Position numbers and translations under genes: made by a program
The notes under the pieces: generated by a model
What the model saw: only the letters and a program-made list of their open reading frames with translations
What the model was told of the DNA's origin: nothing
Database searches by the model: none
Shown: in pieces, positions 42,169 to 64,000 of the stretch
Position numbering within the stretch: position 1 is the stretch's first letter
How the letters are laid out: each line of letters begins with the position of its first letter
Assembly (NCBI RefSeq): GCF_020614375.1
Contig: NZ_CP085329.1
Coordinates: forward strand, 62,001-126,000
From: Haladaptatus salinisoli
GTDB taxonomy: Archaea > Halobacteriota > Halobacteria > Halobacteriales > Haladaptataceae
Direction: 5' to 3'
DNA: 64,000 nucleotides

Positions 42169-43074
42169 TCAGTTTCCGCCGGTCGTTACGTCGACGCCCG
42201 CCCCTCTCGCGGTAACGTCGACGATATTGCGCAGAATCAGCGCGAGCGTGAGCGGTCCCACGCCGCCCGGGACGGGCGTGATGGCGGACGCCTTCTCTTC
42301 GACGCGCTCGAAGTCGACGTCGCCGACGAGTTCGTACCCCTTCTCCGTGTCCGCGTCGACGCGGTTGACGCTGATGTCGACGACCGAGACGCCGGCCGAG
42401 ACCATCCGTTCGTCGACCAACCGCGAAACGCCGGCGGCCGTTACGAGGATGTCGGCGCGCCGAGTCTCGGCCGCCAAATCCCTCGTCGCCGTGTGACACA
42501 CCGTAACCGTCGCGTCCCCGCCGGGACCGCGGGCGAGAAACAGGTTCGCGAGCGGCTTGCAGATGGCGGCGTTCCGTCCGACCACGACCACGTCCTTGCC
42601 GACCGTCTCGATACCGTAGGCATCGAGAAGGCGCAAAACGGCGGCGGGCGTGGCGGGCGTCACCCGCGGGTCGCCGACGACGAGGCGTCCTAAGTTCTCG
42701 TGCGCGAAGCAGTCGATGTCCTTCGCCGGCGGGACGCGATTCCTGACCGCGCACGCGTCGACGTGGTCAGGGAGCGGCACCTGCACGAACAGCGACGTGA
42801 CGTCGTCGTCGGCACCCATCCGTTCGACCGCACGGTAGAGCACCTCCGCCGGTTCGTCCGGCGGAACGTCGACCCTCTTGGTCGGAATCCCGGCCGCCTC
42901 GCAGAGGTCGTGCTTTCGGTCCATGAACGCCTCGTCGGCATCGTCGTCGCTCATCAGAACCGTCCCGAGCGTCGGCGTGACGCCGCGGTCCCGGAGGACG
43001 GCGAGATCGTCGCGGACGCCCTCGCGCAGTTCCTCCGCGAGCGGTCGTCCCCGCAGTAGCGTCGTCGCGGTCAT
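42169..43074 (-). CDS. folD: FolD-family methylenetetrahydrofolate dehydrogenase/cyclohydrolase, divergent copy
   Basis: 301 residues. FolD interconverts 5,10-methylene-, methenyl- and 10-formyl-THF. It keeps Lys54, Gln98 in FVQVPLPDHVD and Asp121 in KDIDCF, but the active-site Tyr is Phe50 (EAFMDRK). The NADP-site consensus GRSxIVGxP is GRNAAICKP (166-174) here. PVPGGVGPLT is intact. So the protein is co-linear with FolD but altered at sites for catalysis and cofactor. It faces the same way as the canonical copy at 43486, about 410 bases apart, with a zinc-ribbon gene on the other strand between. It may have other specificity or be partly inactive. Confidence 0.85.
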   Translation of the reverse strand: MTATTLLRGRPLAEELREGVRDDLAVLRDRGVTPTLGTVLMSDDDADEAFMDRKHDLCEAAGIPTKRVDVPPDEPAEVLYRAVERMGADDDVTSLFVQVPLPDHVDACAVRNRVPPAKDIDCFAHENLGRLVVGDPRVTPATPAAVLRLLDAYGIETVGKDVVVVGRNAAICKPLANLFLARGPGGDATVTVCHTATRDLAAETRRADILVTAAGVSRLVDERMVSAGVSVVDISVNRVDADTEKGYELVGDVDFERVEEKASAITPVPGGVGPLTLALILRNIVDVTARGAGVDVTTGGN

Positions 43075-43212
43075 GCGTATCGGATGCATCGTTGGTACGG
43101 CGGAGAAAAATATCCTTCGCAGAACGAACGCCTCGCGGGCGAGAATCGGCTGGGAGGTCCCGTGCGAGTGCGAACGATCGCCCCCGCTCGGACCGGGGAT
43201 ACGTATTTCACG

Positions 43213-43434
43213 ATGAACTACGATAGCGACTCCATGGGAAGTGAATGCTACTATTGTCGCGGAATAGTGCTCGCAAACGAGGACGGCGACATCCTGCTGG
43301 ACGACCACGCGGACCACCGCGTCTACATGCACAAGCGGTGCGGAGAGAGTCACGGCGTCATCGGGGAACTGACGGGGGCGAGGAGCGCGGTCGAGGTAAC
43401 CTGCCCGGAGTGCGGTGCCGTCGAAACGCGCTGA
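43213..43434 (+). CDS. Small zinc-ribbon-like protein
   Basis: 73 residues with CYYC near the N-terminus, HKRC in the middle and CPEC near the C-terminus, so one or two zinc sites. A start at 43234 (MGSECYYC) is also possible. It lies between the two folD genes on the opposite strand. Haloarchaea have many such small zinc proteins; the role is unknown. Confidence 0.65.
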   Translation: MNYDSDSMGSECYYCRGIVLANEDGDILLDDHADHRVYMHKRCGESHGVIGELTGARSAVEVTCPECGAVETR

Positions 43435-43485
43435 TGCTCACCGCCCGTCGGTGATGATCGAGTCGCTTCCCCGAGAGGAGTACGT

Positions 43486-44379
43486 CTACGGGAGGTCGAC
43501 GGGCACGCCCGACTGCAGGCTCGCCGCTTTGACGGTGTTGTACATGAGCATCGCGATGGTGAGCGGTCCCACGCCGCCCGGGACGGGCGTGATGGCGCTC
43601 GCCTTCTCCTTCGCGCTCTCGAAGTCGACGTCGCCGACGAGTTCGTACCCTTTCTCCGTATCGGCCTCGACGCGGGTGATACCGACGTCGATGACGGTCA
43701 CGCCGTCGGAGAGCATCTCGCCGTCTATCATCTCGGGGACGCCGGCCGCGGCGACGACGACGTCGGCTTCGCGGGTTTTCGCGGCGAGGTCGGCCGTGCG
43801 CGAGTGACAGACCGTCACCGTCGCGTTGCCGCCTTGGTCCCGCTGTACGAACAGGTTCGCCATCGGTTTGCCGACGATGTCCGACCGCCCGACGACGACC
43901 GCGTCCTTGCCCTCCGTGTCGACGTCGCAGGCCGCCAGTATCTTCTGGACGCCGTGGGGAGTGCAGGGCTTGTAGCGGGCGTTGCCCGCCACTAGTCGCC
44001 CGACGTTCTCCGGGTGGAAGCCGTCGACGTCCTTCATCGGGTCGATGCGCTCCAGAACCGTTCGCGTATCGACGTGGTCGGGAACGGGCATCTGGACGAG
44101 GATGCCGTGGACCGCCGGGTCCTCGTTCAACCGGTCGATTCGGTCGAACAGGACCTCCGCCGGTTCCCCCGGGTCGATCTCGTGGTGGATCCCCTCGATA
44201 CCGGTTTCCTCGCAGGCCCGCTGTTTCATCGAGACGTACGTCTTGCTCCCCCCGTCGTCGCTCATCAACACCGTCGCCAGCCCCGGCGTCACACCCTCGT
44301 CGTTCAACCGTCGCGCACGTTCCGCCACGTCGGCTCTGATTCGATCCGCGATCTCGTTTCCGTCGATTATCGTAGTCAT
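43486..44379 (-). CDS. folD: Methylenetetrahydrofolate dehydrogenase/cyclohydrolase FolD, canonical copy
   Basis: 297 residues. Tyr48 and Lys52 in TYVSMKQRA, VQMPVPDHVD, PMKDVDGFHPENVGRL, the NADP site VVGRSDIVGKPMANLF and PVPGGVGPLT are all as in active FolD. It catalyses NADP-dependent oxidation of 5,10-methylene-THF to methenyl-THF and its hydrolysis to 10-formyl-THF. It lies among other folate genes and provides the middle step between C1 donors and Fhs. The 332 bases upstream (44380-44711) hold no gene; they contain the promoters of folD and of the divergent chorismate enzyme, with a TATA-like TATCTATAC near 44654. Confidence 0.95.
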   Translation of the reverse strand: MTTIIDGNEIADRIRADVAERARRLNDEGVTPGLATVLMSDDGGSKTYVSMKQRACEETGIEGIHHEIDPGEPAEVLFDRIDRLNEDPAVHGILVQMPVPDHVDTRTVLERIDPMKDVDGFHPENVGRLVAGNARYKPCTPHGVQKILAACDVDTEGKDAVVVGRSDIVGKPMANLFVQRDQGGNATVTVCHSRTADLAAKTREADVVVAAAGVPEMIDGEMLSDGVTVIDVGITRVEADTEKGYELVGDVDFESAKEKASAITPVPGGVGPLTIAMLMYNTVKAASLQSGVPVDLP

Positions 44380-44711
44380 CGTTGGCGTGTTTCCGTCGTA
44401 GTGGCGTCGTCCGGCCCCGAACCGGCGGCGTTCGAGTAGCGGCTCGAACGCTACCGCGCCGTTCGCGGGCGGTCGTTGCCCAGCACTCTCGGTACCTATC
44501 TCGGATTCGGACGGTATAGGTGGGGGTGAGGAATAGTCAACCCATTGAAGTGGGGACGTGCGCCGGAAAGGGCTACGTCGTCCGTTCGCGGTCGCACCGA
44601 CTCGAGAGCCGCCGTTTCGACGACCCGCGCAAGATTTTTGTCGGAACTACCGGTATCTATACAACGGTATCGAGGGCCGCACACCGGTTCTCGCGAGCAC
44701 CAGTACGTCAG

Positions 44712-46220
44712 ATGAAAGGTATCACCGTCGTCACGAAGGAAGAATCGTTTCTGGAGACCGCAGCGGCTGCACCGCCAGGGGCTCGGGTACCGTTCGAAGT
44801 TCGCATCACCGTCTCGGATCCGTTCGAGGCGTACCGCCGCGCCCGCGACACCGACGCCGACGGGTTCTATCTCGAAACGACCGGCGGGCAGTCCGGGTGG
44901 GGCTACTTCGGCGTCGAACCGGTCGAGCGCCTGCAAGTGAACGCAAACGCGACACCCTTGGACGCCGACAGCTCGAGCATCGAAGCCATCGACTCGTTGT
45001 TGAACCGCGAACGGCTGGTTCGCGGGGAGTGCGACGTCCCGTATCCGTGCGGCGCGTTCGGGTGGTTGTCCTACGACATCGCGCGGGAACTGGAGGACTT
45101 GCCGGCGACGACGGTCGGCGACGGCCTCCCCCGACTCCAACTCGGGGTGTTCGACCGCGTCGCCGCTTGGGAGGAGCCGCGCGACGACGACGTCCGAATT
45201 CGTGTGACCGCGTGTCCCGTCGTCGAAGGGTCGCCGGAGGCGGCCTACGAGGAAGGGCGAGAGAAAGCGACGGCGCTCGCCCGGGCGGCGCTGCGCGGGG
45301 AGGGACGGATTCGGTCGCCCCCGACTCCGACCCGGCAGGCGACGTTCGAGAGCGAGTGCGGTCGAGCGGCGTTCGCCGACCGCGTTCGAACCATCAAACG
45401 GTACATTCGAGACGGGGATACGTTTCAGACGAACGTCTCGCACAGGTTGGTCGCACCCGCGGCGGTCGGTCCGGTCGAGACCTTCGACGCGGTGCGGCGG
45501 GTGAACCCCGCGCCCTATTCCGCGCTGCTGGAGTTTCCGGGCGTCGACCTCGTGAGCGCCAGTCCCGAACTCCTGCTCGACGTCGACGGCGACCGCGTCG
45601 TCACCGAACCCATCGCCGGGACGCGGCCGCGCGGGGGGACTCCGGAGGAGGACGCGGAACTCGAAGCCGACCTGCTGGCCGACGAGAAGGAGCGCGCCGA
45701 GCACGCGATGCTGGTCGACCTCGAACGAAACGACCTCGGAAAGGTAAGCGAGTACGGGAGCGTCGACGTCGCCGAGTACCGCCGCGTCGACCGCTACTCC
45801 GAGGTGATGCACCTCGTCTCGCTGGTGGAAGGGCGGTCGCGCGACGGCGTGGGCGTTGCGGACGCCGTCGCGGCGGTGTTCCCCGGCGGCACCATCACGG
45901 GCGCGCCGAAGCCTCGAACCATGGAGATAATCGACGAGGTCGAGACGACCCGTCGCGGACCCTACACCGGGAGCATCGGCGTTTTCGGGTTCGACGACCG
46001 GGCGACCCTGAACATCACCATCCGGACGCTGGTTCACCACCGCGACGAGTACCGGTTACGCGTCGGAAGCGGCGTGGTTCACGATTCGGTGCCCGAGCGC
46101 GAGTACGAGGAGACGCTGGACAAGGCGCGGGCGCTCGTGACGGCCGTCGACGAGGCGCTGGGCGAGCAGGGGTCGTTCGCCGTCGATACCGGCACCGACG
46201 CGATGGAGGGGGTCAGATGA
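44712..46220 (+). CDS. Chorismate-utilising synthase component I (PabB or TrpE type)
   Basis: 502 residues. The C-terminal chorismate-binding domain is clear: [80 protein letters not shown] and [12 protein letters not shown]. In E. coli PabB a Lys nucleophile sits in PIKGT; here it is Ala302 in PIAGT, as in anthranilate synthase TrpE. The genomic setting (folD, FolC-FolP, Fhs) favours a folate role, making 4-amino-4-deoxychorismate, while the residue favours anthranilate. Its stop overlaps the next gene's ATG (ATGA). I start at MKGITVVT, where homology begins. Confidence 0.85.
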
Positions 46221-46789
46221 TACTCATCGTCGACAACTACGACTCGTTCGCCTACAACCTCGTCCAGTACATCGGCGAGTTCGACGACGTCGCGGTGCGG
46301 CGCAACGACGAGATAGACGTGGCGGGTATTCGGGACCTGAATCCCGACGGTATCGTCGTCTCCCCCGGGCCGGGGACGCCGGTCGACGCCGGCGTCTCCA
46401 TCGACGTCTTCGCCGAAACGGAGTATCCCGCTCTCGGCGTCTGCCTGGGCCATCAAGCGCTGTGTGCGGCGCACGGGGCAACGGTCGGGCACGCCCCCGA
46501 GGTGGTTCACGGCAAGCAGTCCGAAATCCGTCACGACGGAACCGGCCTGTACGAGGGCGTCGCAAACCCGATCGAGGTCGGGCGCTACCACTCGCTGGCC
46601 GTCGACGAGGACGACCTGCCGGCCGAACTGACCGAGACGGCGTACACCAACGACGAACGGGGCGTCGTGATGGGGGTCCGGCACGTCGAGCGCCCCCATG
46701 TCGGCGTGCAGTTCCACCCCGAGAGCATCCTCACCGACGCCGGAAAACGAATCGTGAAGAACTTCTGCACGTCCGTCGCCGCCGTCTGA
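46217..46789 (+). CDS. pabA: Chorismate synthase glutamine amidotransferase (PabA/TrpG)
   Basis: 190 residues, a class I glutamine amidotransferase. [13 protein letters not shown] at the start, SPGPGTP, the nucleophile Cys in GVCLGHQAL, and the His-Glu pair in VQFHPES complete the triad. It supplies ammonia to the synthase encoded upstream, with which it overlaps by four bases. TrpG and PabA cannot be told apart by sequence, and one protein can serve both enzymes; the symbol rests on the folate neighbourhood. A PabC-type lyase gene, often next in such operons, is missing. Confidence 0.88.
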
Positions 46790-46938
46790 GTCGCGCCGCT
46801 CCGACAACCGCCCGTCGCTCGCAACGCCCCCGAGGAGCGCCCCCGCGATATCCCACAACCGGAAAGCGTTCCGTCAGAACGTGTCGCGGGGGACGATACG
46901 GCCGAGATTTAAGGGCCGCGCGCGGAAAGAACCGGGAC

Positions 46939-47319
46939 GTGAAACGCACCATCAGTTCCGACGATGCACCGGCCGCGGTCGGCGCGTACAGCCAAGCGAC
47001 GACGAACGGCGACGTCCTCGTCACCGCCGGACAACTTCCGCTGACGACCGACGGGGAGTTGCTCGCGGACGAATCCGTCGGCGAGCAGGTTCGGCAGTGT
47101 CTCAGAAACGTCGAAGCGATCCTCGAATCGGAGGGTCTCGCGCTCGACGACGTGCTCAAGACGACGGTCTTTCTCAACGACATAGAGGACTTCGACGAGT
47201 TCGACGAGGCTTACAGCGAGTTCTTCCGGAACGACCCCCCGGCGCGGAGCGCCGTCGGCGTCGCCGCGGTGCCGAAGGGCGCGGCGGTGGAGATAGAGGT
47301 CGTCGCGACGACCGAGTAG
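46939..47319 (+). CDS. ridA: RidA/YjgF family enamine/imine deaminase
   Basis: 126 residues from a GTG start that directly follows a GGGAC element. APAAVGAYSQATTNGDVLVTAGQLPL is the family N-terminus, and PPARSAVGVAAVPKGAAVEIEVVA carries the conserved Arg and Glu. RidA removes reactive enamines formed by PLP enzymes. It occupies the place where a pabC gene might be expected after pabB-pabA, which could be chance. The gap of 149 bases before it allows its own promoter. Confidence 0.9.
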   Translation: MKRTISSDDAPAAVGAYSQATTNGDVLVTAGQLPLTTDGELLADESVGEQVRQCLRNVEAILESEGLALDDVLKTTVFLNDIEDFDEFDEAYSEFFRNDPPARSAVGVAAVPKGAAVEIEVVATTE

Positions 47320-47407: not shown

Positions 47408-47431
47408 CCCCTCGGCTCCACGTTCCAAGCG

Positions 47432-48955
47432 ATGACAGGAGGGACAGGTGCCGTCGGTCGCTCGCCCGTCGTACGCGTCGCGACCGCGGCAGCAACGGAC
47501 GACTGCGAGCGAGTCCTCGCCGCGGCGCGGGGCGCGGCCGACCGGGTACCGGTGATTCGGACGGGGCCGACCGGTATCGCGGAGAGCGACCCGCTCGTCA
47601 TGGCGAGCAGCGCGGGACGGACGGCGTTTTTCTCGAATCCGAGACCGCCGGTAATCGAGGAACTGGTCGACGCGCTGGAAGCCGGGTCGGTTCCGACGGA
47701 CGGCGCGGACACCGTCGCGGACCACGACCCGGATATCGCGTCGCTACCGGTTCCGGACGCCGGACCGCTCTCGGTCGGTCGGCGGTCGGTGCTCGGCCCG
47801 TGCGGGTGGGTCGACCCGTCGAACCCGACGGAACGACCCCTCGTCGCGACCGAACGGACGGCCGAAGCGGTAGCCGACGTGGGACTCCTCGGACGCGGGC
47901 GCGGCGACGCCGCCGCGGACGCGCCGGTGACCGACGTATGGGAGACGGCTCGGAGGACGGACGGGGACCCGGTCGTCGTCGCCAACGCGAACGAGGCCAG
48001 CGATACGCCGCGGGCCGACGCGACGTTGCTCGCCGGTGCACCCATGGCGGTTCTCGACGGGATGGCGGCCGTCGCGGAGTACGTCGGCGCGGAAGACGCC
48101 GTTCTCTACCTGAACGAGACGGACGTCGAACTGCATCGAATCCTCCGCGAGGCGGTCGACGCGGCCGCCGCGGAGCTACCGATCGTTCCGCAGTTGGTGA
48201 CCGGCCCCGACGAGTACCGCGCCGGCGAGCCGACCGCCGCGCTCGAAGCGCTGGAAGGCGCGGACCGCATCGAGCCGCGTGTGCAGCCGCCTTCGCCCGC
48301 CGAACACGGACTCTACGGTCGCCCGACGGTGATTCACACGCCTCGGACGTTCGCCCAGGTTCGGCGCGCCCTCCGGGAACCGGACGCGTTCGACGCGGAC
48401 GCCGCCGACCCCGGAACGAGACTGGTCACCGTCGGCGGCGACGTGGCGAGTCCCGCGACCGTCGAACTGGCGCCGGGTGACAGTCTCGAAACGACGCTGG
48501 ACGCCGTCGAGATGACGGGCTCGTTCAAGATGGCCTGCGTCGGCGGTGTCCTCGGCGGCGTCACCCGTACCCTCGACGTCGCGCCGACCGCGCGGTCCCT
48601 GCACGCCGCCGGTCTCGGCACCGACGGCGTCGTCGAACTGCTGGACGAAAAACGGTGCGCGGTCGCGACCGCCGGCGAGCGCGCGAAGTTCGCCGCGACG
48701 GAGAACAGCGGTCGCTGCGTTCCCGGCCGCGAGGGAACGAAACAGCTCGTCGAACTCCTGCGCGACGTCTACCGAGGGTCGCTCGAAACCGACGAGATTC
48801 GGGAACTGGGTCGAGTGATGCGCCGGTCGAGTAACTGTCAAATCGGGGCGCACGCGCCCCGACCCGTGACGACCGCCATCGACGAGTTCGAACCGGAGTT
48901 TCGCGCGCACACCGACGGCCGCTGTCGCGCCGGCGCGTGTACGGGGGACCGATGA
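47432..48955 (+). CDS. NuoF/FdhB-like formate dehydrogenase subunit with degenerate cofactor sites
   Basis: 507 residues. It is co-linear with NuoF/formate dehydrogenase beta subunits: a SLBB-like central part and a C-terminal Fe-S helical domain. The FMN-loop region reads GLLGRGRGDAAADAP where typical proteins have GLRGRGGAGFPTG, and NANEASDTP replaces NADEGEPGT. The cluster motif SCGxCxPCRxG is SGRCVPGREG here, with Cys to Ser426 and Cys to Gly432; Cys429 and Cys469 remain. So FMN and 4Fe-4S binding are doubtful. It overlaps fdhA by four bases and is surely its partner. It may be a structural subunit or use another acceptor. Confidence 0.8.
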   Translation: MTGGTGAVGRSPVVRVATAAATDDCERVLAAARGAADRVPVIRTGPTGIAESDPLVMASSAGRTAFFSNPRPPVIEELVDALEAGSVPTDGADTVADHDPDIASLPVPDAGPLSVGRRSVLGPCGWVDPSNPTERPLVATERTAEAVADVGLLGRGRGDAAADAPVTDVWETARRTDGDPVVVANANEASDTPRADATLLAGAPMAVLDGMAAVAEYVGAEDAVLYLNETDVELHRILREAVDAAAAELPIVPQLVTGPDEYRAGEPTAALEALEGADRIEPRVQPPSPAEHGLYGRPTVIHTPRTFAQVRRALREPDAFDADAADPGTRLVTVGGDVASPATVELAPGDSLETTLDAVEMTGSFKMACVGGVLGGVTRTLDVAPTARSLHAAGLGTDGVVELLDEKRCAVATAGERAKFAATENSGRCVPGREGTKQLVELLRDVYRGSLETDEIRELGRVMRRSSNCQIGAHAPRPVTTAIDEFEPEFRAHTDGRCRAGACTGDR

Positions 48956-51900
48956 GTTCCGAGGATCCGCTTCCGCGCGTTCCCGACCTCGCCGACCCGC
49001 GACCGAGCACGCCGGTCACGGCCGAGTTCGAGACGGGCACCGCGACCGACCCCGCCGTCGGCACGGACGGCGACGAGCCAACGACGGTCACGGTCAACGG
49101 CGAACCGGTGACCGTTCCGCCGGGGTCGACCGTCATCGACGCGATGAACCTCGTCGGCGACGAGAACGTGACGGTCGCGTCGGGTCCGGACGGCGTCGAC
49201 GACGCCGACGTCCCGGCGCTCTGCCACTACGACCGCGAGGGCGATTGTAGCGACCGAATCGGCCCCCGGAGCGAGTGTCGAACCTGCATGGTCGAGACGG
49301 ACTCCCACGGCATCGTCCCGGCCTGTTCGTTCCCGGCCGAGGACGGCCTCGGCGTCCGGACGGACTCGCCGGACGCCGAGGAGTGCCGCAGCGTCAACCT
49401 CGACCTCGTGCTCTCGAACCACAACCTCCGCTGTACGACCTGCAACGGCAACGGTCGCTGCGAACTGCAGGACGCCGCCATCAGCGAGGGCGTCGACCAC
49501 CCGCGCTACGGCGTCTTCGACGAGCGCGACCGGTACGAGCCGATCGACGACTCCTCGTCGTTCATCCAGATCGACCGCAACAAGTGCATCCTCTGCAGTC
49601 GGTGCGTCGACGCGTGCAACGACGTTCAGGTGGAAGGCGTCCTCCGAATCGAAGGGCACGGCGAGGACACCCGAATCGGCTTCCAGTCCGACGCCGAGAC
49701 GATGCACGACTCCGACTGCGTCTCCTGCGGCCACTGCGCGACGGTCTGTCCGACCGGCGCGCTGACCGAGAAGGGTATCGACGGGGTCGGGACGATTCCG
49801 CTCCCGGGATTCACCCAGCGGAACTCCGTCGGGGAGGTCATCGAGCACGAAGACGCCGAGACGATAGACGACGCGACCGCGCCGAACCGGTCGTTCGGGG
49901 CGAACGAACCCGCACGAAGCGACCGCGACGAGAGAACCGGTCTCGCCCGGTTCATGGACCGGGTGAAGCGCCGGGGCGGCGAACTCGGTCGGAAAGCGAT
50001 GCTGGCGGGCGAACACGCGGCCGAGGGTATCGCGGCGAACGCGCTCCCCGAGCGCTACCTGTTCGACATCGCCAGCACGGTCGGCGACTACCGACTGGGC
50101 TCGATAGAGAGAGCGGAGACGACGTGCGGATTCTGCGCCGTCGGATGTCGCTTCGAGATGTGGGGGAAGGACGGCCGGACGCTCGGGGTCGTTCCGGTCG
50201 ACGACCCGGACGACGCCCCGGCGAACGACTTCTCGACCTGCGTGAAGGGGAAGTTCGGCCACGAGTTCGCGAACAGCGGAAAGCGGCTCACGAAACCGCT
50301 CGTTCGCAACGAGGCGGGGGAACTGGAACCGACGAGTTGGAGCGAGGCGCTGGACCGCGCGGCGGAACGCCTCGCCGAAATTCAGGAGAGCCACGGCGTC
50401 GACGCGGTCGGTTGCCTCGCGTCCTCGAAGGGCACGAACGAGGAGGCGTACCTCGTCCAGAAGTTCGCCCGACAGGTGCTCGGGACCAAGAACATCGACA
50501 ACTGCGCCCGCCTCTGTCACTCCTCGACGGTGGCGGCGCTCCAACAGACGGTGGGCTACGGCGCGATGACGAACCGCATCAACGAGGACATCGGTCGGGC
50601 CGACGCCTACCTCATCAGCGGGTCGAACACGACCGAGTCCCATCCCGTGCTGGCGACGAGAATCAAGCAGAACGTCCGCGACGGAGCCGACCTCGTCGTG
50701 TTCGACCCCCGAAAGGTCGACATCGCCGAGCACGCGGACCAGTACACGCGGACGAAGCCGGGCTACGACGTCGTCTGGCTCAACGGGATGATTCGGTACC
50801 TCGTCGAGAACGACCTCCACGACGAGGAGTTCATCGAGCGCAACACCACCGGCTTCGAGGAGGTCGAGCGGAAGGTTCGGGCGTTCACCCCGGAGCGAGT
50901 CGAGGAGTTGGCGGGCGTCCCGCCGGCGGAACTGGCCGCGGCCGCCGAGACGCTCGCGGCGGCCGAGACCGTCGTGTTCGGGTGGGCGATGGGGATGACC
51001 CAGTCCAGTCACGGCACCGAGAACCTCATCGCGATGGCCGACCTCGCGCTGACGCTCGGACAGGTCGGCAAGGAGGGGGCCGGTCTCTCCCCGTTCCGCG
51101 GTCAGAACAACGTGCAGGGCGGCGGCGGAGACATGGGAACGCTGCCCGGGAGCCTTCCCGGGTATCAGGACCCGGCGGACGACGAGGTCGGCGAGAAGTT
51201 CGCCGAAGCGTGGGGCGAGCGGCCGCCGGAGGAGCCCGGCCTCACGGTGCCGGAGATGTTCGACGAGATACACGAGGGGAACCTCCGCGGGATGTACGTC
51301 GTCGGCGAGAACCCAGCGCTCTCCGAACCCGACATCGAACACGCGGCGGAAGGGCTCGAGGAAATCGACTTCCTCGTCGTGCAGGACATCTTCCTGACGG
51401 AGACGGCCGAACACGCCGACGTCGTCCTTCCCGCGGCGACGTCGCCGGAGAAACACGGGACGTTCACCAACACCGAGCGCCGCATCCAGCGGGTCCGACC
51501 GAGCGCGGAGCCGCCGGGCGAGGCCCGACAGGATTGGGAGATAACCCGGGCGCTGGCCAATCGCCTCGGCTACGGCTGGGACTACGACCACCCCCGCGAG
51601 ATAATGGACGAGATACGATCGCTCGCGCCCATCTACGGCGGCGTCACCTACGACCGCTTGGAGGAGGGCGAGAAGCACGGTTTGCAGTGGCCGTGTTGGG
51701 ACGAGGACCACCCGGGCACGCCGTACCTCTACGACTACGAGGACGGGAACTTCAACTTCGAGGACGGGAAAGCGCGGTTCGTCCCCGCCGACGGCGGTCA
51801 CCCCGGAGAGCTCCCGGACGAGGAGTACCCGTACACGCTGACGAGCGGTCGCGTGCTCTACCACTGGCACACCGGCCAAATCACTCGGCGCGTGGAGGGG

Positions 51901-52242
51901 CTGATGAGCCACGTCGGCGAGAGCTTCGTCGAGATCAATCCCCAGACGGCGACCCGGCTCGGCGTCTCCGACGGCGAGTACGTCCGCGTCGAATCTCGCC
52001 GCGGGTCCATCGTCGTCAAGGCCGAGGTCACCGAGCGCGTCGGGCCGAACACGCTGTTCATCCCGATGCACTTCGCCGCGGGGGCGGTGAACAAACTCAC
52101 GCAGAGTACCTTCGACCCGCAGGCCGGCATCCCAGAGTACAAGGTGTCCAGCGTCCGCGTCGAGGCGCTCGGCCCGGAGACGGACGAGGCGGTCCTCCGC
52201 ACCCCGGACGTCGGCGGGAGCGGTCTCACCGGCGACGACTGA
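48952..52242 (+). CDS. fdhA: Formate dehydrogenase catalytic subunit (molybdopterin, multi Fe-S)
   Basis: 1096 residues. The N-terminal 2Fe-2S domain has Cys91, 109, 112 and 125, with several extra residues between the first two. Next are a HNLRCTTCNGNGRCEL segment of the NuoG type, two 4Fe-4S sets (CILCSRCVDAC and CVSCGHCATVCP), and the molybdopterin part with TCGFCAVGCRFEM binding another cluster. Cys522 in NCARLCHS is the expected Mo/W ligand, so this is a Cys, not selenocysteine, enzyme. The C-terminal MGD-binding domain includes LTSGRVLYHWHTG. It oxidises formate to CO2 in the cytoplasm; with fhs and folD it would end a folate-linked C1 route. Confidence 0.9.
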   Translation: MSSEDPLPRVPDLADPRPSTPVTAEFETGTATDPAVGTDGDEPTTVTVNGEPVTVPPGSTVIDAMNLVGDENVTVASGPDGVDDADVPALCHYDREGDCSDRIGPRSECRTCMVETDSHGIVPACSFPAEDGLGVRTDSPDAEECRSVNLDLVLSNHNLRCTTCNGNGRCELQDAAISEGVDHPRYGVFDERDRYEPIDDSSSFIQIDRNKCILCSRCVDACNDVQVEGVLRIEGHGEDTRIGFQSDAETMHDSDCVSCGHCATVCPTGALTEKGIDGVGTIPLPGFTQRNSVGEVIEHEDAETIDDATAPNRSFGANEPARSDRDERTGLARFMDRVKRRGGELGRKAMLAGEHAAEGIAANALPERYLFDIASTVGDYRLGSIERAETTCGFCAVGCRFEMWGKDGRTLGVVPVDDPDDAPANDFSTCVKGKFGHEFANSGKRLTKPLVRNEAGELEPTSWSEALDRAAERLAEIQESHGVDAVGCLASSKGTNEEAYLVQKFARQVLGTKNIDNCARLCHSSTVAALQQTVGYGAMTNRINEDIGRADAYLISGSNTTESHPVLATRIKQNVRDGADLVVFDPRKVDIAEHADQYTRTKPGYDVVWLNGMIRYLVENDLHDEEFIERNTTGFEEVERKVRAFTPERVEELAGVPPAELAAAAETLAAAETVVFGWAMGMTQSSHGTENLIAMADLALTLGQVGKEGAGLSPFRGQNNVQGGGGDMGTLPGSLPGYQDPADDEVGEKFAEAWGERPPEEPGLTVPEMFDEIHEGNLRGMYVVGENPALSEPDIEHAAEGLEEIDFLVVQDIFLTETAEHADVVLPAATSPEKHGTFTNTERRIQRVRPSAEPPGEARQDWEITRALANRLGYGWDYDHPREIMDEIRSLAPIYGGVTYDRLEEGEKHGLQWPCWDEDHPGTPYLYDYEDGNFNFEDGKARFVPADGGHPGELPDEEYPYTLTSGRVLYHWHTGQITRRVEGLMSHVGESFVEINPQTATRLGVSDGEYVRVESRRGSIVVKAEVTERVGPNTLFIPMHFAAGAVNKLTQSTFDPQAGIPEYKVSSVRVEALGPETDEAVLRTPDVGGSGLTGDD

Positions 52243-56974: not shown

Positions 56975-58354
56975 ATGCCAGAGAGCAGCGAACATCCAAA
57001 TCACCCTGGTGTCGACCAGTCGGATCGCGTACTACCGAGGAACCTGCGTCAGACTGGCGACCCCGGCATCGAGATGTTGGTCTCCACGCGCGTTCGTAAA
57101 TCGCCTTTCTTCGACAAATCCTTCAACGAGGAGGGCGCTTGGCGGTGTACGGTGTACAACCGAATCTACCACCCTCGCGGCCTCGTCGAACCGGAGGACG
57201 GCGGCGCGATGGCCGAGTACGAGGCGCTAACCGAGAAGGTGACGCTTTGGGACGTCGCCGTCGAGCGCCAGATTCGCGTGAAGGGACCGGACGCGGAGGC
57301 GCTCACCAACTACGTCATCACCCGGGACGCGACCGAAATCGAACCGATGCGCGGGAAGTACGCCATCCTCTGTAACGAGGACGGCGGAATCCTGAACGAC
57401 CCGGTCCTGTTGCGGGTCGCGGAGGACGAGTTCTGGTTCTCCCTCTCCGACTCCACGCTCATGCAGTGGTTGCAGGGCGTCAACGTCGGGAAGGACTTCG
57501 ACGTCGAGATAGACGAAATCGACGTCGCACCGATGCAGATACAGGGCCCGCTGTCCGAGGACGTGATGATAGACGTCGTCGGCGAGGAGGTCAGCGAAAT
57601 CCCGTACTACGGCCTCATGGGCGCCGAAATCAACGGCTGTCCGGTGCTGGTGAGCCAGACGGGCTTCTCCGGCGAGAAGGGGTTCGAAATCTACGTGAAA
57701 GACGCGATGGAAAACGCCGAGCGCGTCTGGGACCCGGTCATGGAGACCGTCAAGGCTCACGGCGGGATGCAGATCGCGCCCGGACACCACCGTCGAATCG
57801 CGGCGGGCATCCTCTCGTGGGGCCAGGACATGGACCACGAAACGTCCCCGTTCCAGGTCAACCTCGGCTATCAGGTGCCGGACGACAAGGACGCCGACTA
57901 CATCGGCAAGGAGGCACTCGAACGCCAGAAGGAGTTGATAGAGGACGGCGAGTACCCGTTCAACCACAAGCTGGTCGGCCTGAAGATGGCCGGCGAGCCG
58001 ATTCGGGATTACGCCCCCGACTTCTGGATAATCTCCGACCCCGAGTCGGGCGAGGAGTGCGGTTACATGACGTCGCCGTGGTGGAACCCCGACCTGGAGA
58101 CGAACATCGGGCTCGGTTTCGTACCGGCGGACAAACTCCAGTCTGAGGCCGACGTCCCGCTCGACGACGAAATCTACGAGGCCGACCTCGACATCGAGTT
58201 CGAGGTGCACCTGCCGGACGAGTACGCCGAGGAGGAGGGCGAACCGGTGTACGCCACGGTGGCGAGGGTTCCGTTCAAGGAGTCGGTCAACCCGAGCGCC
58301 CGCGAACAGGCCAAGCTGAACGCCAGGAAAGAAGCGGAAGCCAACGACGACTGA
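56975..58354 (+). CDS. GcvT-family THF-dependent methyltransferase/demethylase (DmdA/LigM-like)
   Basis: 459 residues. The aminomethyltransferase fold is evident, but the N-terminus is of the demethylase type: STRVRKSPFFDKS, CTVYNRIYHPRG, then VTLWDVAVERQIRVKGPDAEALTNYV. These stretches resemble DMSP demethylase DmdA and the O-demethylase LigM more than glycine-cleavage GcvT. Further marks are IQGPLSEDVM, TGFSGEKGFEIYV, the RIAAGILSWGQDMD region and the C-terminal barrel ending in VPFKES. It would move a methyl group from an S-, O- or N-methylated substrate to THF. No glycine-cleavage genes are adjacent. The substrate is unknown. Confidence 0.8.
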   Translation: MPESSEHPNHPGVDQSDRVLPRNLRQTGDPGIEMLVSTRVRKSPFFDKSFNEEGAWRCTVYNRIYHPRGLVEPEDGGAMAEYEALTEKVTLWDVAVERQIRVKGPDAEALTNYVITRDATEIEPMRGKYAILCNEDGGILNDPVLLRVAEDEFWFSLSDSTLMQWLQGVNVGKDFDVEIDEIDVAPMQIQGPLSEDVMIDVVGEEVSEIPYYGLMGAEINGCPVLVSQTGFSGEKGFEIYVKDAMENAERVWDPVMETVKAHGGMQIAPGHHRRIAAGILSWGQDMDHETSPFQVNLGYQVPDDKDADYIGKEALERQKELIEDGEYPFNHKLVGLKMAGEPIRDYAPDFWIISDPESGEECGYMTSPWWNPDLETNIGLGFVPADKLQSEADVPLDDEIYEADLDIEFEVHLPDEYAEEEGEPVYATVARVPFKESVNPSAREQAKLNARKEAEANDD

Positions 58355-58531: not shown

Positions 58532-59779
58532 TCAGTCGTAGAGCGGGTACTCGTCCGCGAGTTCGTCGACCCGGGCGCTGACGTCGGCGACGACGGCCTC
58601 GTCGTGGGGGGCGTCGACGACTTCGTAGATGAGGTCGGCGACTTCGCGGCACGCCGCCTCATCGAAGCCGCGGGTCGTGAGCGCGGGCGTACCGGCGCGA
58701 ATCCCCGAGGGATTGAACGGCGAACGCGTCTCGCCCGGAACAGTGTTCGCGTTCAAGACGATGCCGGCGTTCTCCAGCGCCGATTCGACCTCCTTTCCCG
58801 TCGTGTCGGGATGGGACGGCCTGAGGTCCACCAGCACGAGGTGGTTGTCCGTGCCGCCGGAGACGAGGTCGAGGCCGCGTTCCCGAAGACGGCGGCCGAG
58901 CGCCTTCGCGTTGGCGACGGTCCGCTCCGCGTACTCGTCGAACGCGGGGTCGAGGGCCTCGCCGAACCCGACCGCTTTCCCCGCGATGTTGTGCATCGCC
59001 GGCCCGCCCTGCGCACCGGGGAACACCGCGCTGTCGACGGCGTCGGCGTGCTCTTCGCCGCACATGATGATACCGCCGCGACCGGCGCGGATGGTCTTGT
59101 GCGTCGACCCGGTGACGAAGTCCGCCACGCCCACGGGCGACTCGTGAACGCCCGCGGCGACCAGCCCGGTGACGTGCGCGATGTCGGCCACGTGGTAGGC
59201 GTCGACGGCGTCCGCGGCCGCCTGAACGCGCTCGAAGTCGACCTCCCGGGGATACGCGGAGTACCCGGAGACGATGACGTCCGGGTCGAATCTCTCGGCC
59301 GTCTCGCGCAACCCCTCGTAGTCGACGTAGCCCGTTTCGGGATCGATTTCGTACTGTTCGACGTCGTAGACCTGCCCTGCGAAGTTCGCAGGGTGACCGT
59401 GCGAGAGGTGGCCGCCGTGGGTCAAGTCCAGGGACAGAATCTTGTCGCCCGGTTCCAGAATCGCCAGATACACCCCCATGTTCGCCTGCGAACCCGAGTG
59501 GGGTTGGACGTTGACGTGGTCGGCTCCCCACAGTTCCTCGGCGCGGTCGATGGCCACCCGTTCGATTTCGTCGGCGTACTCACAGCCGCCGTAGTAGCGC
59601 TCGCCGGGGTATCCTTCGGCGTAGTTGTTGGTCAGCTCCGAACTCTGGGCCTCCATGACCGCTTCCGAGACGTGGTTCTCGCTCGCGATCATCGCCAGCG
59701 TGCCCTCCTGTCGGGCGCGTTCGGCTTCCAGGAACTCGGCGACGGTCGCGTCCGTTTCGCGGACGGTATCGTACGTCAT
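58532..59779 (-). CDS. glyA: Serine hydroxymethyltransferase
   Basis: 415 residues. PLP-dependent exchange of a C1 unit between serine/glycine and THF. MIASENHVSEAVMEAQSSELTNNYAEGYPGERYYGG is the hallmark N-terminal region, and the PLP lysine is Lys228 in TGSTHKTIRAGRGG. DLTHGGHLSHG and RAGTPALTTRGF are also family marks. I start at MTYDTVRE, because upstream residues are promoter-like and not conserved. It is convergent to the demethylase gene and lies 172 bases downstream of metF on the same strand. Confidence 0.96.
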   Translation of the reverse strand: MTYDTVRETDATVAEFLEAERARQEGTLAMIASENHVSEAVMEAQSSELTNNYAEGYPGERYYGGCEYADEIERVAIDRAEELWGADHVNVQPHSGSQANMGVYLAILEPGDKILSLDLTHGGHLSHGHPANFAGQVYDVEQYEIDPETGYVDYEGLRETAERFDPDVIVSGYSAYPREVDFERVQAAADAVDAYHVADIAHVTGLVAAGVHESPVGVADFVTGSTHKTIRAGRGGIIMCGEEHADAVDSAVFPGAQGGPAMHNIAGKAVGFGEALDPAFDEYAERTVANAKALGRRLRERGLDLVSGGTDNHLVLVDLRPSHPDTTGKEVESALENAGIVLNANTVPGETRSPFNPSGIRAGTPALTTRGFDEAACREVADLIYEVVDAPHDEAVVADVSARVDELADEYPLYD

Positions 59780-59951
59780 GAGTAACGTACCGGGCTCGGA
59801 ACGGAATAATTTATCCTTCGACGGAAGATGACGGACGACCGACCATCTGTGTTCCACGGTACCACAGTATGACAGGCCTACCGCTGTTCGCAATCGCAGG
59901 TGAGGCGGTCTACCGCGACCGTCGCTCGTCCACCGCTCGTCGTGCCTGCGA

Positions 59952-60812
59952 CTACTCCCGGATTCGCGCGCGCCGCCACGATTCGGTGTCGGCCGTCTGG
60001 TTGAAGGTGTAGACGTGGATTCCGCGAATTCCGTACGCCTCGTCGTCGACGTACGGCGCGAGTCCGTCGACGAGTTCGTTCGGCTTGTACTTCCCCCGCG
60101 AGGTGACGAGTTGGCGGACGAACCCGAGGATGCCGGTCGTCTTGCTGAGGAACTTGATCGAGTCGCCGACGCCGACCTTCTGGGAGATGTCGATCAGACG
60201 CTGATACTTCATCACGCCCGGAATGCCGATTTCGACGGGGAGGTCGACGTTCCGGTCGCGGATCGTCTCGATCCACTCGATGACGGTCTCCGGGTCGTAA
60301 CAGAGCTGGGTGACGATGTAGGTCGCGTACGGTTCTTTCTCGGCCATCGAATCCGTCAGCGTCTTCTCGTCGAGGAAGGCGTGCCCCTCCGGATAGCCGG
60401 TGATACCGACCTCGTCGAAGGAGTACTCCGTCTCGTCGAGCGTCGAGAGCAGGTCGTGGGCCGACTCGAACTCCCCGGCGGGTTCGTCGCGGTCGCCGCC
60501 CGGCACGAAGATATCCGTGACGCCGGCGACGGTGAGCCGTCGCGCGATGTCTTCGAGGTGTTCCCGGTCGGTGACGTAGCGCGCGGCGATGTGGGGAACG
60601 ACGTCGAACCCCCGCTCGGCCGCCTGTTCCGCGCGCTCGACCGTCCGCTCGATGCCGAGTTGGGGCGACGTGGTGATGGCGACGCTCGCGTCGTCGGGCA
60701 GGTGGGTTACTTCGTCGTCGAAACTGTCGAACGGCATCAGTTCGTACCGTGCGCCCGTCAGGAGTTCCTCGACGCCCTCCCGTTCCGTGTCGGTACGCAG
60801 TCCGAGGGACAT
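59952..60812 (-). CDS. metF: Methylenetetrahydrofolate reductase (MetF-like)
   Basis: 286 residues forming one FAD-type TIM barrel. VAITTSPQLGIERTVERAEQAAERGFDVVPHIAARYV matches the MetF start, then VPGGDRDEPAGEF, GITGYPEGHAF and YIVTQLCYDPETVIEWI. It would link 5,10-methylene-THF and 5-methyl-THF, which suits a demethylase that leaves methyl-THF. The sequence is divergent from bacterial MetF; whether it uses NADH, ferredoxin or F420 is not visible. Divergent from the dimethylglycine dehydrogenase-like gene across a 280-base promoter region. Confidence 0.85.
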   Translation of the reverse strand: MSLGLRTDTEREGVEELLTGARYELMPFDSFDDEVTHLPDDASVAITTSPQLGIERTVERAEQAAERGFDVVPHIAARYVTDREHLEDIARRLTVAGVTDIFVPGGDRDEPAGEFESAHDLLSTLDETEYSFDEVGITGYPEGHAFLDEKTLTDSMAEKEPYATYIVTQLCYDPETVIEWIETIRDRNVDLPVEIGIPGVMKYQRLIDISQKVGVGDSIKFLSKTTGILGFVRQLVTSRGKYKPNELVDGLAPYVDDEAYGIRGIHVYTFNQTADTESWRRARIRE

Positions 60813-61052
60813 ATCTTACGCAGAGATGACGGCGGAGGTACTTTTGTCTGTGGGTGTCGCTGAAAACGTATTCAAGTGGCGAGCGGCGGAAATCGCATCA
60901 ACGACGCTTTCGCAGGGCTCGACGGCGCGATTTCGCCACCCCCGAAACCGTCGAACCGCGCCCCGTTCGCCGAAGCGAGCGCCTCGCCACACGACGGAAA
61001 CTCGAAGTGACACGTTTCGAACATTCGGAGGGACGTAACTCCTCCGGACGAT

Positions 61053-61062
61053 AACTATATTT
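61053..61062 (+). promoter_or_regulatory. TATA box of the first dimethylglycine dehydrogenase-like gene
   Basis: AACTATATTT is centred about 35 bases before the ATG at 61093, giving a short leader. Confidence 0.45.
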
Positions 61063-61092
61063 GCGCACCGCGGCCACTTGTGAATCAGACTC

Positions 61093-63666
61093 ATGGATAC
61101 GACCGACAGCTTGCCGACCCGGGCCGACACCGTCATCGTCGGTGCCGGCATCGTCGGCTGCAACATCGCGTATCACCTGACAGCGCTCGGCCGAGACGAC
61201 GTCGTGGTGGTCGACCAGGGGCCGATGCCGACCACCGGTGGGTCCTCGTCTCACGCACCCGGCATCATGTTCCAAACCGCCGACTCGAAGATACTCACCA
61301 AGTTCGCGAACTACAGCCGGGAGCTGTACTCCTCGCTCGAGGGGAAAGACGGCGAGCGGGCCTACAACGAGGTCGGCGGCATCGAGGTGGCCCGAAGCGA
61401 GGAGCGCATGGACTTCCTCCAACGTCGCGTCGAGTGGGGGAAAGCGTGGGGCATCGAAGCGCCCCGACTCCTCTCGCCCGAGGAGGTGACCGAGCACCTC
61501 CCGCTCGTGAGCGAGGACGTGATTCTCGGGGGCTACTACTCGCCGACCGACGGACAGGTCTCCGGCGTCGTCGCCTGCGACGCGCTCGCTCGGGAGGCGA
61601 TGGAGCGCGGTGCCGAGTTCGTCCCGCACACCCGCACCGAGGACGTCGAGGTCGAGAACGACTCGGTGCGGGCGGTCGTCACGGAGAACGGCACCATCGA
61701 GTGCGACGAGGTCGTCATCGCGACGAACATCTGGGCCCGACAACTCGGCGAGAAACTCGGGGTTCACCTGCCGGTCGCTCCCGTCGAGCACCAGTACACG
61801 ATAACCGAACCGCTCGACGAAATGGCGGACGGCGCGGTCGACGTCGGCGACCACCCGCTGTTCGAGAACTACCGCAACGTCTCCGGCGAGAAGGCGAAGC
61901 GCCTGCTCGTCGGACCCGACCGGCCCATCCTGCGCGACCAGGACAACGCGATGTACTACCGGACGCACGGTGACGCCTACGGCATCGGCTCGTACAACCA
62001 CGAGCCGATCGTTCCGAACCCGCAGGAGCTGGGCGATAACGACCCGGACGGCGAGCAGGGGTCGGTTCACGAGTTCACCGACTACCACATGAACAACGCG
62101 ACGCACCCGGACCGACCGGACAAACCCCCGCGACAGGCAAGCGACGAGTTCATCCCCGCCACGGCCGGCAAGGACCTCGAATACAAGTACAACGGGATGT
62201 TCGCCGAATCGCCGAACGGCCTGCCCGTGATGGGTCCGGTCGAGGAGTACGACGGCCTTTGGACCGCGGCGGCCATCTGGGTCACGCACGCCGGCGGTGC
62301 CGGGAAAGCCCTCGCGGAGTGGATGGAGAACGGCGTCCCGCGGCTCCCCGACGGTCCCATCGACCTCGCGCACGCCGACGTCAACCGGTTCGACGCCCAC
62401 GAGGGAAGCTGGGATTTCACCCGCGACATCGGCGGGGAGGAGTACCGCATCGTCTACAACGTCGTGCACCCGAAGTGGGTGTGGACCGATAAACAGCGGG
62501 ACATCCGCCGGACGCCGATGTACCACACGCACGAGGAGTACGGCGCCGAGTTGTGGGCCGAGGCCGGCTGGGAGGAGCCGCAGTGGTTCGAGTCGAACGC
62601 CGACCTGCTGGCCGAGTACGGCGACCGAATCCCCGACCGCGACGGGTGGGAGGGCAAGTACTGGTCGCCCATCGAGGGGGCGGAGGCGTTGCACGTCCGC
62701 AACGAGGTCGGCCTCCACGACATGACCTCGTTCAACAAGATGGAGGTCGTCGGGAGCGACGCCGGTCGGTTCGTCCAGCACCTCTGTACGAACGACGTGG
62801 ACATCGACGTCGGCGACGTCAAGTACACGCTGATGTGCAACGAGGGCGGCGGCGTCCGCGCGGACATCACCGTCACGCGCACCGACGAGAATCGCTACCT
62901 CCTGCTCACGACCGGCCGCGAGGTCGGAAACAACCACGTCGCGTGGGTCCGCGACCGCGCTCCGGAGAACGTCGTCGTCAACGACGTCACCTCCAGTTTG
63001 GCCGCGATGGTCTGTACCGGGCCGAACGCCCGCAAAGTGCTCTCGAAGGTCGCCACCGCCGACCTATCGGACGACGCCTTCCCGTTCTTCACGAGCCAGC
63101 GGTTCTTCGTGAAGAACGTGCCCGTCACCGCGCTGCGCGTCTCCTACGCCGGCGAACTCGGCTGGGAGCTGTACACGCCCTCCGAGTACGGCGAGACGCT
63201 CTGGAATCACGTTCTGGCGGCCGGCGAGGAGTACGACATCCGACCGTACGGAAACGGCGCGCTGGACGCGCTGCGCATCGAGAAGGGGTTCCGGCTTTGG
63301 GGCGAGGACCTCCACACCGAGCACAACCCGTCCGAGGCCGGCCTCGACTGGGCGGTCGACCTCGACACCGACTTCATCGGCAAGGAGGCCGTCGCCGCGG
63401 CCGCCGAAGGCGACAACATCGACCACAGAGTCGCCTGCCTGACCCTGGACGACGAGGACGCGGTGGTGCTGGCGGACCGGCCGGTGCTCGACGGCGACGA
63501 GACCATCGGGTACGTCCACAGCGCGGAGTACGGCTACACCGTCGGGGCCTGCGTCGCGTACACGTACCTGCCCCCTGAGTACGCCGAACCCGGAACGGAG
63601 GTCGAGATACTCTACGAAGGTGACCGGTACGGCGCGACCGTCCGGGAAGAACCGCTGGTGTCCTAA
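61093..63666 (+). CDS. Dimethylglycine/sarcosine dehydrogenase-like flavoprotein with GcvT domain
   Basis: 857 residues, close to the length of dimethylglycine dehydrogenases. The FAD fold is VIVGAGIVGCNIAYHL (15-30), and His54 in GGSSSHAPG matches the position of the His that binds FAD covalently in that family. The oxidase domain runs to about 430. From about 500 there is a GcvT-like folate-binding domain (LHVRNEVGLHDMTSFNKMEVVG, AYTYLPPEYAEPG at the end). The enzyme takes a methyl group from an N-methylated amine acid as formaldehyde equivalent onto THF to give methylene-THF. A second copy follows at 63883. Confidence 0.9.
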   Translation: MDTTDSLPTRADTVIVGAGIVGCNIAYHLTALGRDDVVVVDQGPMPTTGGSSSHAPGIMFQTADSKILTKFANYSRELYSSLEGKDGERAYNEVGGIEVARSEERMDFLQRRVEWGKAWGIEAPRLLSPEEVTEHLPLVSEDVILGGYYSPTDGQVSGVVACDALAREAMERGAEFVPHTRTEDVEVENDSVRAVVTENGTIECDEVVIATNIWARQLGEKLGVHLPVAPVEHQYTITEPLDEMADGAVDVGDHPLFENYRNVSGEKAKRLLVGPDRPILRDQDNAMYYRTHGDAYGIGSYNHEPIVPNPQELGDNDPDGEQGSVHEFTDYHMNNATHPDRPDKPPRQASDEFIPATAGKDLEYKYNGMFAESPNGLPVMGPVEEYDGLWTAAAIWVTHAGGAGKALAEWMENGVPRLPDGPIDLAHADVNRFDAHEGSWDFTRDIGGEEYRIVYNVVHPKWVWTDKQRDIRRTPMYHTHEEYGAELWAEAGWEEPQWFESNADLLAEYGDRIPDRDGWEGKYWSPIEGAEALHVRNEVGLHDMTSFNKMEVVGSDAGRFVQHLCTNDVDIDVGDVKYTLMCNEGGGVRADITVTRTDENRYLLLTTGREVGNNHVAWVRDRAPENVVVNDVTSSLAAMVCTGPNARKVLSKVATADLSDDAFPFFTSQRFFVKNVPVTALRVSYAGELGWELYTPSEYGETLWNHVLAAGEEYDIRPYGNGALDALRIEKGFRLWGEDLHTEHNPSEAGLDWAVDLDTDFIGKEAVAAAAEGDNIDHRVACLTLDDEDAVVLADRPVLDGDETIGYVHSAEYGYTVGACVAYTYLPPEYAEPGTEVEILYEGDRYGATVREEPLVS

Positions 63667-63844
63667 CGGTCGCCGACTCCCGGTAGGTCGGCAACTCGTG
63701 TTCCTCTTCTGTCGCGTTGTGGTTCGCGCCCGCGAGCGATCGCGGATTCGGCGTTCGAACGACCGAATCTCGATATGGGGAAAATCGCGGAGTATGGGCC
63801 GTCTGGCGCGAAATCTCGACGAATCCGACCTCCTCCCACCGGTG

Positions 63845-63852
63845 TATTTAAG
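63845..63852 (+). promoter_or_regulatory. TATA box of the second dimethylglycine dehydrogenase-like gene
   Basis: TATTTAAG is centred about 34 bases before the ATG at 63883, so the second copy has its own promoter and need not be co-transcribed with the first. Confidence 0.5.
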
Positions 63853-63882
63853 ATAGTGACAGTTCCACACCAGCACGAAAGA

Positions 63883-64000
63883 ATGAGTACAACGGACCTT
63901 CCATCGCGGTCGGATACCGTCATCATCGGAGCCGGTGCCGTCGGGTGTAGCGTCGCGTACCACCTCACGGAACTCGGCAACGACGACGTCACCGTCGTCG
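63883..64000 (+). CDS. Second dimethylglycine/sarcosine dehydrogenase-like protein, N-terminal part
   Basis: Only the first 39 codons lie in the window. They read MSTTDLPSRSDTVIIGAGAV then GCSVAYHLTELG, nearly the same as the start of the protein at 61093-63666, so a tandem paralogue begins here. The GxGxxG FAD site is complete. Nothing more can be said about its substrate or its GcvT domain. Confidence 0.85.
   Translation, partial: MSTTDLPSRSDTVIIGAGAVGCSVAYHLTELGNDDVTVV

Follow-up and report, generated by a model that had tools for sequence, protein, structure and literature searches.

Which enzyme takes the first methyl group from glycine betaine in haloarchaea is the question raised by a gene island of Haladaptatus salinisoli. 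Glycine betaine is a dominant osmolyte in saline habitats, and the enzyme for its first demethylation has repeatedly been missing. The island occupies positions 42169–64000 of the stretch of DNA that we analysed (64,000 nucleotides, positions 62001–126000 of contig NZ_CP085329.1; hereafter the window), in a genome of 5.0 Mb and 8 contigs. An earlier note, made from the sequence alone, had proposed a tetrahydrofolate (THF)-dependent route from methylated osmolytes to formate and CO2. Profile searches with Pfam and NCBIfam located all the genes named there, and this gene set is well supported and strengthened by comparative data. The range of substrates was too broad, however: there is little support for dimethylsulfoniopropionate (DMSP) or methoxylated aromatics, and glycine betaine fits best. 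On balance, the region is probably a glycine-betaine catabolic island, oxidising the betaine methyl groups via THF to formate and CO2. For the first demethylation, our candidate is a protein that we call DmdL.

DmdL, a GcvT-superfamily protein outside the DmdA clade

DmdL (56975–58354, +) belongs to the GcvT/aminomethyltransferase superfamily, with a folate-binding GCV_T fold (PF01571, 148 bits), and is a putative THF-dependent demethylase. Its closest solved relative, both by sequence and by predicted fold, is the DMSP demethylase DmdA (PDB 3tfh); 1yx2 and 1wos are the other best fold matches of a model of moderate quality (predicted local distance difference test score 71). The earlier description of DmdL as DmdA/LigM-like holds for the superfamily but not for DmdA itself. 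The protein scores 242 bits against the NCBIfam DmdA model NF009133, whose cutoff is 410. In our tree it falls in a clade of its own (support 100/99), whereas DmdA and its SKQGG-containing relatives form a separate one (95/97), with long branches that make the exact placement uncertain. DmdL has an invariant Phe231 where DmdA has Trp or Tyr, and SGEKG in place of SKQGG. The DMSP-contact residue of DmdA is W171 (PMC7487153), which probably corresponds to W197 of 3tfh. We rejected DmdL as a DMSP demethylase on model score, clade and motif, and as a LigM-type aromatic O-demethylase because the LigM match is marginal (E 2e-4) and no aromatic genes were recognised in the island.

A bacterial relative of DmdL lies on a Lichenihabitans plasmid beside genes for methylenetetrahydrofolate reductase (MTHFR), purU and folD, a cluster in which the methyl-to-formate logic of the island appears to recur outside the archaea.

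Co-occurrence with one-carbon genes and dimethylglycine oxidases

We surveyed 117 Halobacteria genomes, a phylogenetically clumped sample, so that the p-values below, which ignore phylogenetic non-independence, are optimistic. DmdL is present in 25 of these genomes, an MTHFR of the type found in Sphingobium SYK-6 (see below) in 26, formate-THF ligase (Fhs) in 46, dimethylglycine oxidase in 27 and formate dehydrogenase (FDH, beta type) in 36. All 25 DmdL genomes have this MTHFR, as against 1/92 others (p 1e-24), and all 25 have Fhs, as against 21/92 (p 3e-13). Dimethylglycine oxidase occurs in 20/25 DmdL genomes and 7/92 others (p 2e-12), and these associations are not due to chance. FDH is itself enriched where the oxidase is present (20/27 genomes versus 16/90, p 1e-7).

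The genes are also close to each other. DmdL and MTHFR are at most 10 kb apart in 20/24 genomes that have both on one contig, MTHFR is near DmdL in 63/80 named loci with variable gene order, and Fhs lies within 50 kb of DmdL in 20/23 genomes. Among the 13 genomes with both FDH beta and DmdL, only that of the window has them within 10 kb; they are approximately 30 kb apart in six genomes that share a genus. This genus is probably Haloarcula, as the locus in one of the six has the coordinates of the H. hispanica plasmid. The comparison of synteny suggested by the earlier note shows the same gene set recurring in many genera but in fluid order and seldom with adjacent FDH. The compact route, thought to be unusual, is common in Halobacteria, and only its tight linkage to FDH looks lineage-specific: the one-carbon (C1) module is widespread, while close FDH linkage is a feature of this lineage.

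DmdL is 95% identical to two copies in Haladaptatus halobius. Chromosome 2 of that species carries two rearranged island copies, one with fdhB and oxidases, the other with fdhA, fhs, folCP and BCCT. At two loci of Haloquadratum walsbyi, unlike in most other genera, DmdL has no MTHFR within 10 kb. A conserved protein of about 390–400 residues lacking Pfam or NCBIfam matches adjoins MTHFR/DmdL at locus L098 (22676–23875) and approximately 30 other DmdL loci; none was seen in the window. Genes of the creatininase and AstE/AspA families are repeatedly found next to the oxidases (loci L008, L014, L091, L103 and others), which suggests a creatine/creatinine-type feed into sarcosine.

An MTHFR of the SYK-6 type

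The MetF-like reductase of the earlier note is present as an MTHFR-like protein (59952–60812, −; PF02219), which by homology would be of the methyl-THF-oxidising type. Its best solved matches are 7xg9 and 7xlf (E 4e-30), followed by the next solved MTHFR at 2e-12 and bacterial MetF at 3e-6 or weaker. The predicted fold agrees, with template modelling scores of 0.77–0.79 to 7xlf/7xg9 and 0.56–0.66 to other MTHFRs. By their PDB titles, 7xlf and 7xg9 are the MTHFR of Sphingobium SYK-6, one of them with bound methyl-THF. The protein is thus nearer to the SYK-6 enzyme than to canonical MetF, and it is genetically coupled to a THF-dependent demethylase, with DmdL found in 25/26 MTHFR genomes and adjacent in most. 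Reportedly, the SYK-6 MTHFR runs in reverse, oxidising methyl-THF produced by the GcvT-derived LigM (PMC12585457). This likeness, at approximately 27% identity, is the best indication of the probable direction of flux.

Interchange of DmdL with a Rieske oxygenase

On plasmid pNG700 of Haloarcula marismortui, a Rieske oxygenase is encoded between two dimethylglycine oxidases. GbcA is its best NCBIfam model, but at 132 bits it scores well under the cutoff of 670, and it is 29% identical to a record annotated as carnitine monooxygenase YeaW. Searching the surveyed genomes with this protein gave strong matches (68–94% identity) in ten, each of which carries dimethylglycine oxidase. DmdL and the Rieske protein between them cover all 27 oxidase genomes: 17 have DmdL alone, 7 the Rieske protein alone, 3 have both and none has neither. 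Accordingly, the Rieske protein is found in each of the seven DmdL-free oxidase genomes and in 3/20 with DmdL (p 1.4e-4); at the genus level the figures are 4/4 and 3/9 (p 0.05). Haloarcula hispanica encodes DmdL without this Rieske protein. As we read the tables, each organism with a named haloarchaeal plasmid encoding an oxidase of at least 45% identity also carries DmdL or the Rieske protein. The latter takes the place of DmdL on plasmids of Haladaptatus caseinilyticus, Haloprofundus, Halarchaeum and Haloterrigena, among similar neighbours (oxidase and ilvA, in most cases with BCCT, glyA or folD), so that the swap is seen even within Haladaptatus.

The accompanying genes differ too. FDH is present in 7/7 Rieske-only genomes, and neither MTHFR nor Fhs in any of the seven, as expected if the Rieske protein makes formaldehyde and DmdL methyl-THF, both yielding dimethylglycine. 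The absence of Fhs nevertheless sits oddly with this explanation, since the oxidases of those genomes should load THF as well.

On the strength of this replacement pattern, we predict that DmdL acts as a glycine betaine:THF methyltransferase that needs no corrinoid. More tentatively, and with slightly less than even confidence, we propose that it represents an undescribed class of betaine demethylase within the GcvT superfamily: a single protein that would pass the methyl group to THF with neither corrinoid nor oxygen, that alternates in Halobacteria with a Rieske betaine oxygenase and that has an obligate partner in a methyl-THF-oxidising MTHFR.

Neither MttB-family nor BHMT/S-methyl_trans proteins were found in the genome of the window. 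Its sole Rieske alpha subunit, encoded on another contig (C5) unlinked to the island and adjoining an aldehyde-dehydrogenase-like frame, was rejected as a betaine monooxygenase, being HcaE-like (267 bits, versus 122 for GbcA). In the Rieske islands that we viewed, an unassigned protein of approximately 120 residues is encoded directly 3′ of the Rieske gene (L098, 29206–29577) and is a candidate partner.

A predicted route from glycine betaine to CO2

In the proposed pathway, a BCCT carrier would bring in betaine, and DmdL would transfer one methyl group to THF, yielding dimethylglycine and 5-methyl-THF. Two flavin oxidases would strip the remaining two methyl groups as methylene-THF to leave glycine, while the SYK-6-type MTHFR would oxidise methyl-THF to methylene-THF. 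FolD would then yield 10-formyl-THF, from which Fhs or PurU would free formate for oxidation to CO2 by an NAD-type FDH. GlyA and serine dehydratase would convert glycine and methylene-THF to serine and then pyruvate, and pabAB and folCP would meet the heightened folate demand. Reversal of Fhs, as in the earlier proposal, may bring a gain of ATP; a PurU homologue of this genome, which scores below the curated cutoff, could release formate without ATP. We infer that betaine is the substrate of DmdL, that flux runs towards oxidation and that the genes are induced. The methyl-to-formate/CO2 part of the route is strengthened by the resemblance of MTHFR to the SYK-6 enzyme and by the association of FDH with dimethylglycine oxidase.

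If this is correct, the folate-only route is a new solution to the first demethylation, working without oxygen or cobalamin, and haloarchaea gain a defined role in the turnover of methylated nitrogen compounds. The replacement pattern narrows the question to a one-protein assay.

Several observations weigh against betaine oxidation by this route. Corrinoid-free methyl transfer between a quaternary amine and THF is chemically demanding and, to our knowledge, undescribed; corrinoid systems perform the same net reaction. Haloarcula marismortui and a few others hold DmdL and the Rieske protein in one island, and DmdL may therefore do something additional. Some bacterial DmdL relatives (36–38% identity) are encoded in clusters of DMSP-type or acyl-CoA genes, so that the family alone does not settle the substrate. 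This type of FDH is missing from 12/25 DmdL genomes, and Fhs could work in the assimilatory direction. Five DmdL genomes lack dimethylglycine oxidase; one possibility is that a single methyl group is removed there and dimethylglycine exported, as in betaine-using methanogens and acetogens.

Alternative explanations

Some of these points would also be accounted for if DmdL acted on another onium compound, such as DMSP, trimethylamine N-oxide or a carnitine-type betaine, with a different enzyme demethylating glycine betaine and MTHFR, FolD and Fhs still oxidising methyl-THF. We regard this explanation as unlikely, although it is the one to be taken most seriously. The five genomes devoid of oxidase and the additional Rieske protein of H. 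marismortui speak for it, as do the match to 3tfh and a DmdL relative in Marivivens clustered with an AMP-ligase, an acyl-CoA dehydrogenase and dmdD. It must contend with the score, clade and residue differences that separate DmdL from DmdA and with an island in which no dmdB-D-like genes were recognised, and it would make the full coverage of oxidase genomes by DmdL or the Rieske protein a coincidence.

It is improbable that the module provides C1 units for biosynthesis only, with FDH and Fhs as unrelated neighbours. The precedent would be LigM and the SYK-6 MTHFR replacing glycine cleavage, since that pair is reported to supply biosynthesis (PMC12585457); the folate synthesis genes interspersed in the island and the confinement of FDH adjacency to this lineage fit as well. 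Nevertheless, a standard GcvT-type protein is encoded elsewhere in the genome, so that, judged on GcvT rather than GcvP or GcvH, a loss of glycine cleavage is not indicated. The enrichment of FDH in oxidase genomes, the serine dehydratase and the BCCT carrier point to catabolism. Finally, the genes might be separate transcription units for folate synthesis, FDH and betaine oxidation that came together by chance, on a replicon where catabolic islands abound. This would fit genes on both strands in an order that varies among genera, but it is very improbable given that many genera have the same set, differently ordered, that co-occurrence is strong beyond proximity and that pNG700 of H. marismortui likewise gathers DHFR, folE, folCP and fhs at its island.

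Gene content of the island

Our preferred reading, a betaine catabolic island, draws on genes in the order folD2(−), folD1(−), pabB, pabA, ridA, fdhB, fdhA, fhs(−), folCP, dmdL, glyA(−), MTHFR(−), dmg1, dmg2, dehydratase and BCCT. They are split between both strands and hence do not form a single operon, but pabB/pabA and fdhB/fdhA overlap, and each pair is probably co-transcribed. Profile matches bore out the assignments of both folD genes, fhs, the two FDH subunits, the folC-folP fusion, pabB/pabA and glyA.

Two genes were announced as dimethylglycine/sarcosine-dehydrogenase-like; dmg1 (61093–63666, +) is complete, while only the first 226 bases of dmg2 (63775–64000, +), a second dimethylglycine/sarcosine oxidase-like gene that ends at 66435, are inside the window. 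Dmg1 has the architecture of a dimethylglycine oxidase/dehydrogenase, with a flavin adenine dinucleotide-binding DAO domain followed by FAO_M, GCV_T and GCV_T_C (PF01266, PF16350, PF01571 and PF08669) and full-length homology to 1pj5 (E 3e-169). It keeps GGSxSHAPG, HQY, YYRxHGDxYGIGSY and the Asp of the GVRxDITV motif, a position mutated in 3gsi. Beyond dmg2, past the window, come a serine/threonine ammonia-lyase (above the TIGR01127 cutoff), a BCCT transporter whose best named model is the betaine BCCT, with a score below the cutoff of that model, and an HTH_10 regulator. RidA (46939–47319, +; above the TIGR00004 cutoff), an imine/enamine deaminase, is a plausible partner of the pyridoxal-phosphate-dependent dehydratase.

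FDH consists of FdhB (47432–48955, +), a NuoF-like flavin mononucleotide/Fe-S subunit (PF01512, PF10589; matches to HydB and FdsB, 6tg9_B), and FdhA (48952–52242, +), a molybdopterin alpha subunit whose gene overlaps the end of fdhB (TIGR01591, 807 bits, cutoff 666; matches to YjgC and FdsA). With its NuoG-like N-terminus and NuoF-like partner, it is of the FdsA/FdhF type and, from what is known of the family, likely NAD-linked.

FolD1 (43486–44379, −), the methylene-THF dehydrogenase/methenyl-THF cyclohydrolase, matches PF00763/PF02882 and NF010764 (546 bits, cutoff 477). FolD2 (42169–43074, −; PF00763/PF02882 and NCBIfam FolD; 2c2x, E 2.5e-58) is a divergent paralogue in which the Tyr of the catalytic motif is replaced by Phe and KDVDG by KDIDC. 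Among 31 readable FolDs near DmdL in haloarchaea, 11 belong to such a consistently conserved Phe/Cys subfamily (Tyr to Phe, KDVDG to KDVDC), possibly with an altered balance of dehydrogenase and cyclohydrolase activities. Between folD2 and folD1 lies a Cys-rich, zinc-ribbon-like open frame of 66 residues (43234–43434, +) with no Pfam match.

Fhs (52339–54066, −; PF01268, 816 bits) is encoded by a single copy in the genome, and glyA (58532–59779, −; NF000586, 575 bits, cutoff 335) codes for serine hydroxymethyltransferase. Folate synthesis is represented by PabB (44712–46220, +), component I of aminodeoxychorismate synthase for para-aminobenzoate supply (PF00425, 290 bits; TIGR01824, 399 bits, slightly below the cutoff of 408), its glutamine amidotransferase partner PabA (46217–46789, +; 4-nt overlap with pabB; PF00117, 174 bits; above the TIGR00566 cutoff) and the folC-folP fusion (54385–56775, +) of folylpolyglutamate/dihydrofolate synthase with dihydropteroate synthase (above the TIGR01499 and TIGR01496 cutoffs).

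Comparison with known systems

The nearest parallel is the LigM–S6MTHFR pair of Sphingobium lignivorans SYK-6 (7xg9, 7xlf), reported in PMC12585457, in which a GcvT-derived THF demethylase works together with an MTHFR of the type found here. DmdL is distant from LigM, though, the MTHFRs share only the identity given above, and the context is betaine and dimethylglycine here but lignin methoxyls there. With DmdA and the GcvT-like aminomethyltransferases of SAR11 (PMC3160333), DmdL shares superfamily, fold and the WDVAxERQ and NDPV motifs. Differences from DmdA are its score below the cutoff, its separate clade, the lack of SKQGG and of the Trp/Tyr, the absence of DMSP genes nearby and a predicted substrate other than DMSP. 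In SAR11, a GcvT-like protein near betaine transporters was speculated to act on betaine, and another adjoins metF (PMC3160333).

Bacterial betaine catabolism is alike in betaine uptake, stepwise demethylation via dimethylglycine and THF-linked C1 oxidation. Known systems include GbcAB in Pseudomonas and Chromohalobacter and MtgBCD with MetF2 in Ruegeria (PMC12478193), the B12-dependent first step in marine bacteria having been published in 2025 (PMC12478193), as well as the dimethylglycine oxidase cluster of Arthrobacter (Meskys 2001, as cited in PMC3102087). By contrast, the genome of the window lacks BHMT and MttB-family enzymes, and the island has DmdL in place of a GbcA-like Rieske protein.

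In haloarchaea, a 2011 paper already noted dimethylglycine oxidases beside BCCT carriers, as well as habitat-linked Fhs (PMC3102087). Among the C1-THF genes HTSR_1736–1750 of Halodesulfurarchaeum, those for FdhA, Fhs, MTHFR, FolD and a glycine-cleavage protein are near neighbours (PMC5437934). The passages that we read in these two papers describe the same oxidase-BCCT linkage and clustering of C1-THF genes as here but propose neither a betaine-to-THF demethylase nor its replacement by a Rieske protein. Our literature searches, which did not extend to subscription papers, turned up neither a THF-dependent betaine demethylase from the DmdL family nor the DmdL/Rieske replacement. Parts of the cluster have thus been noted before; what is new is the DmdL/Rieske replacement and, with it, a specific and testable enzyme prediction.

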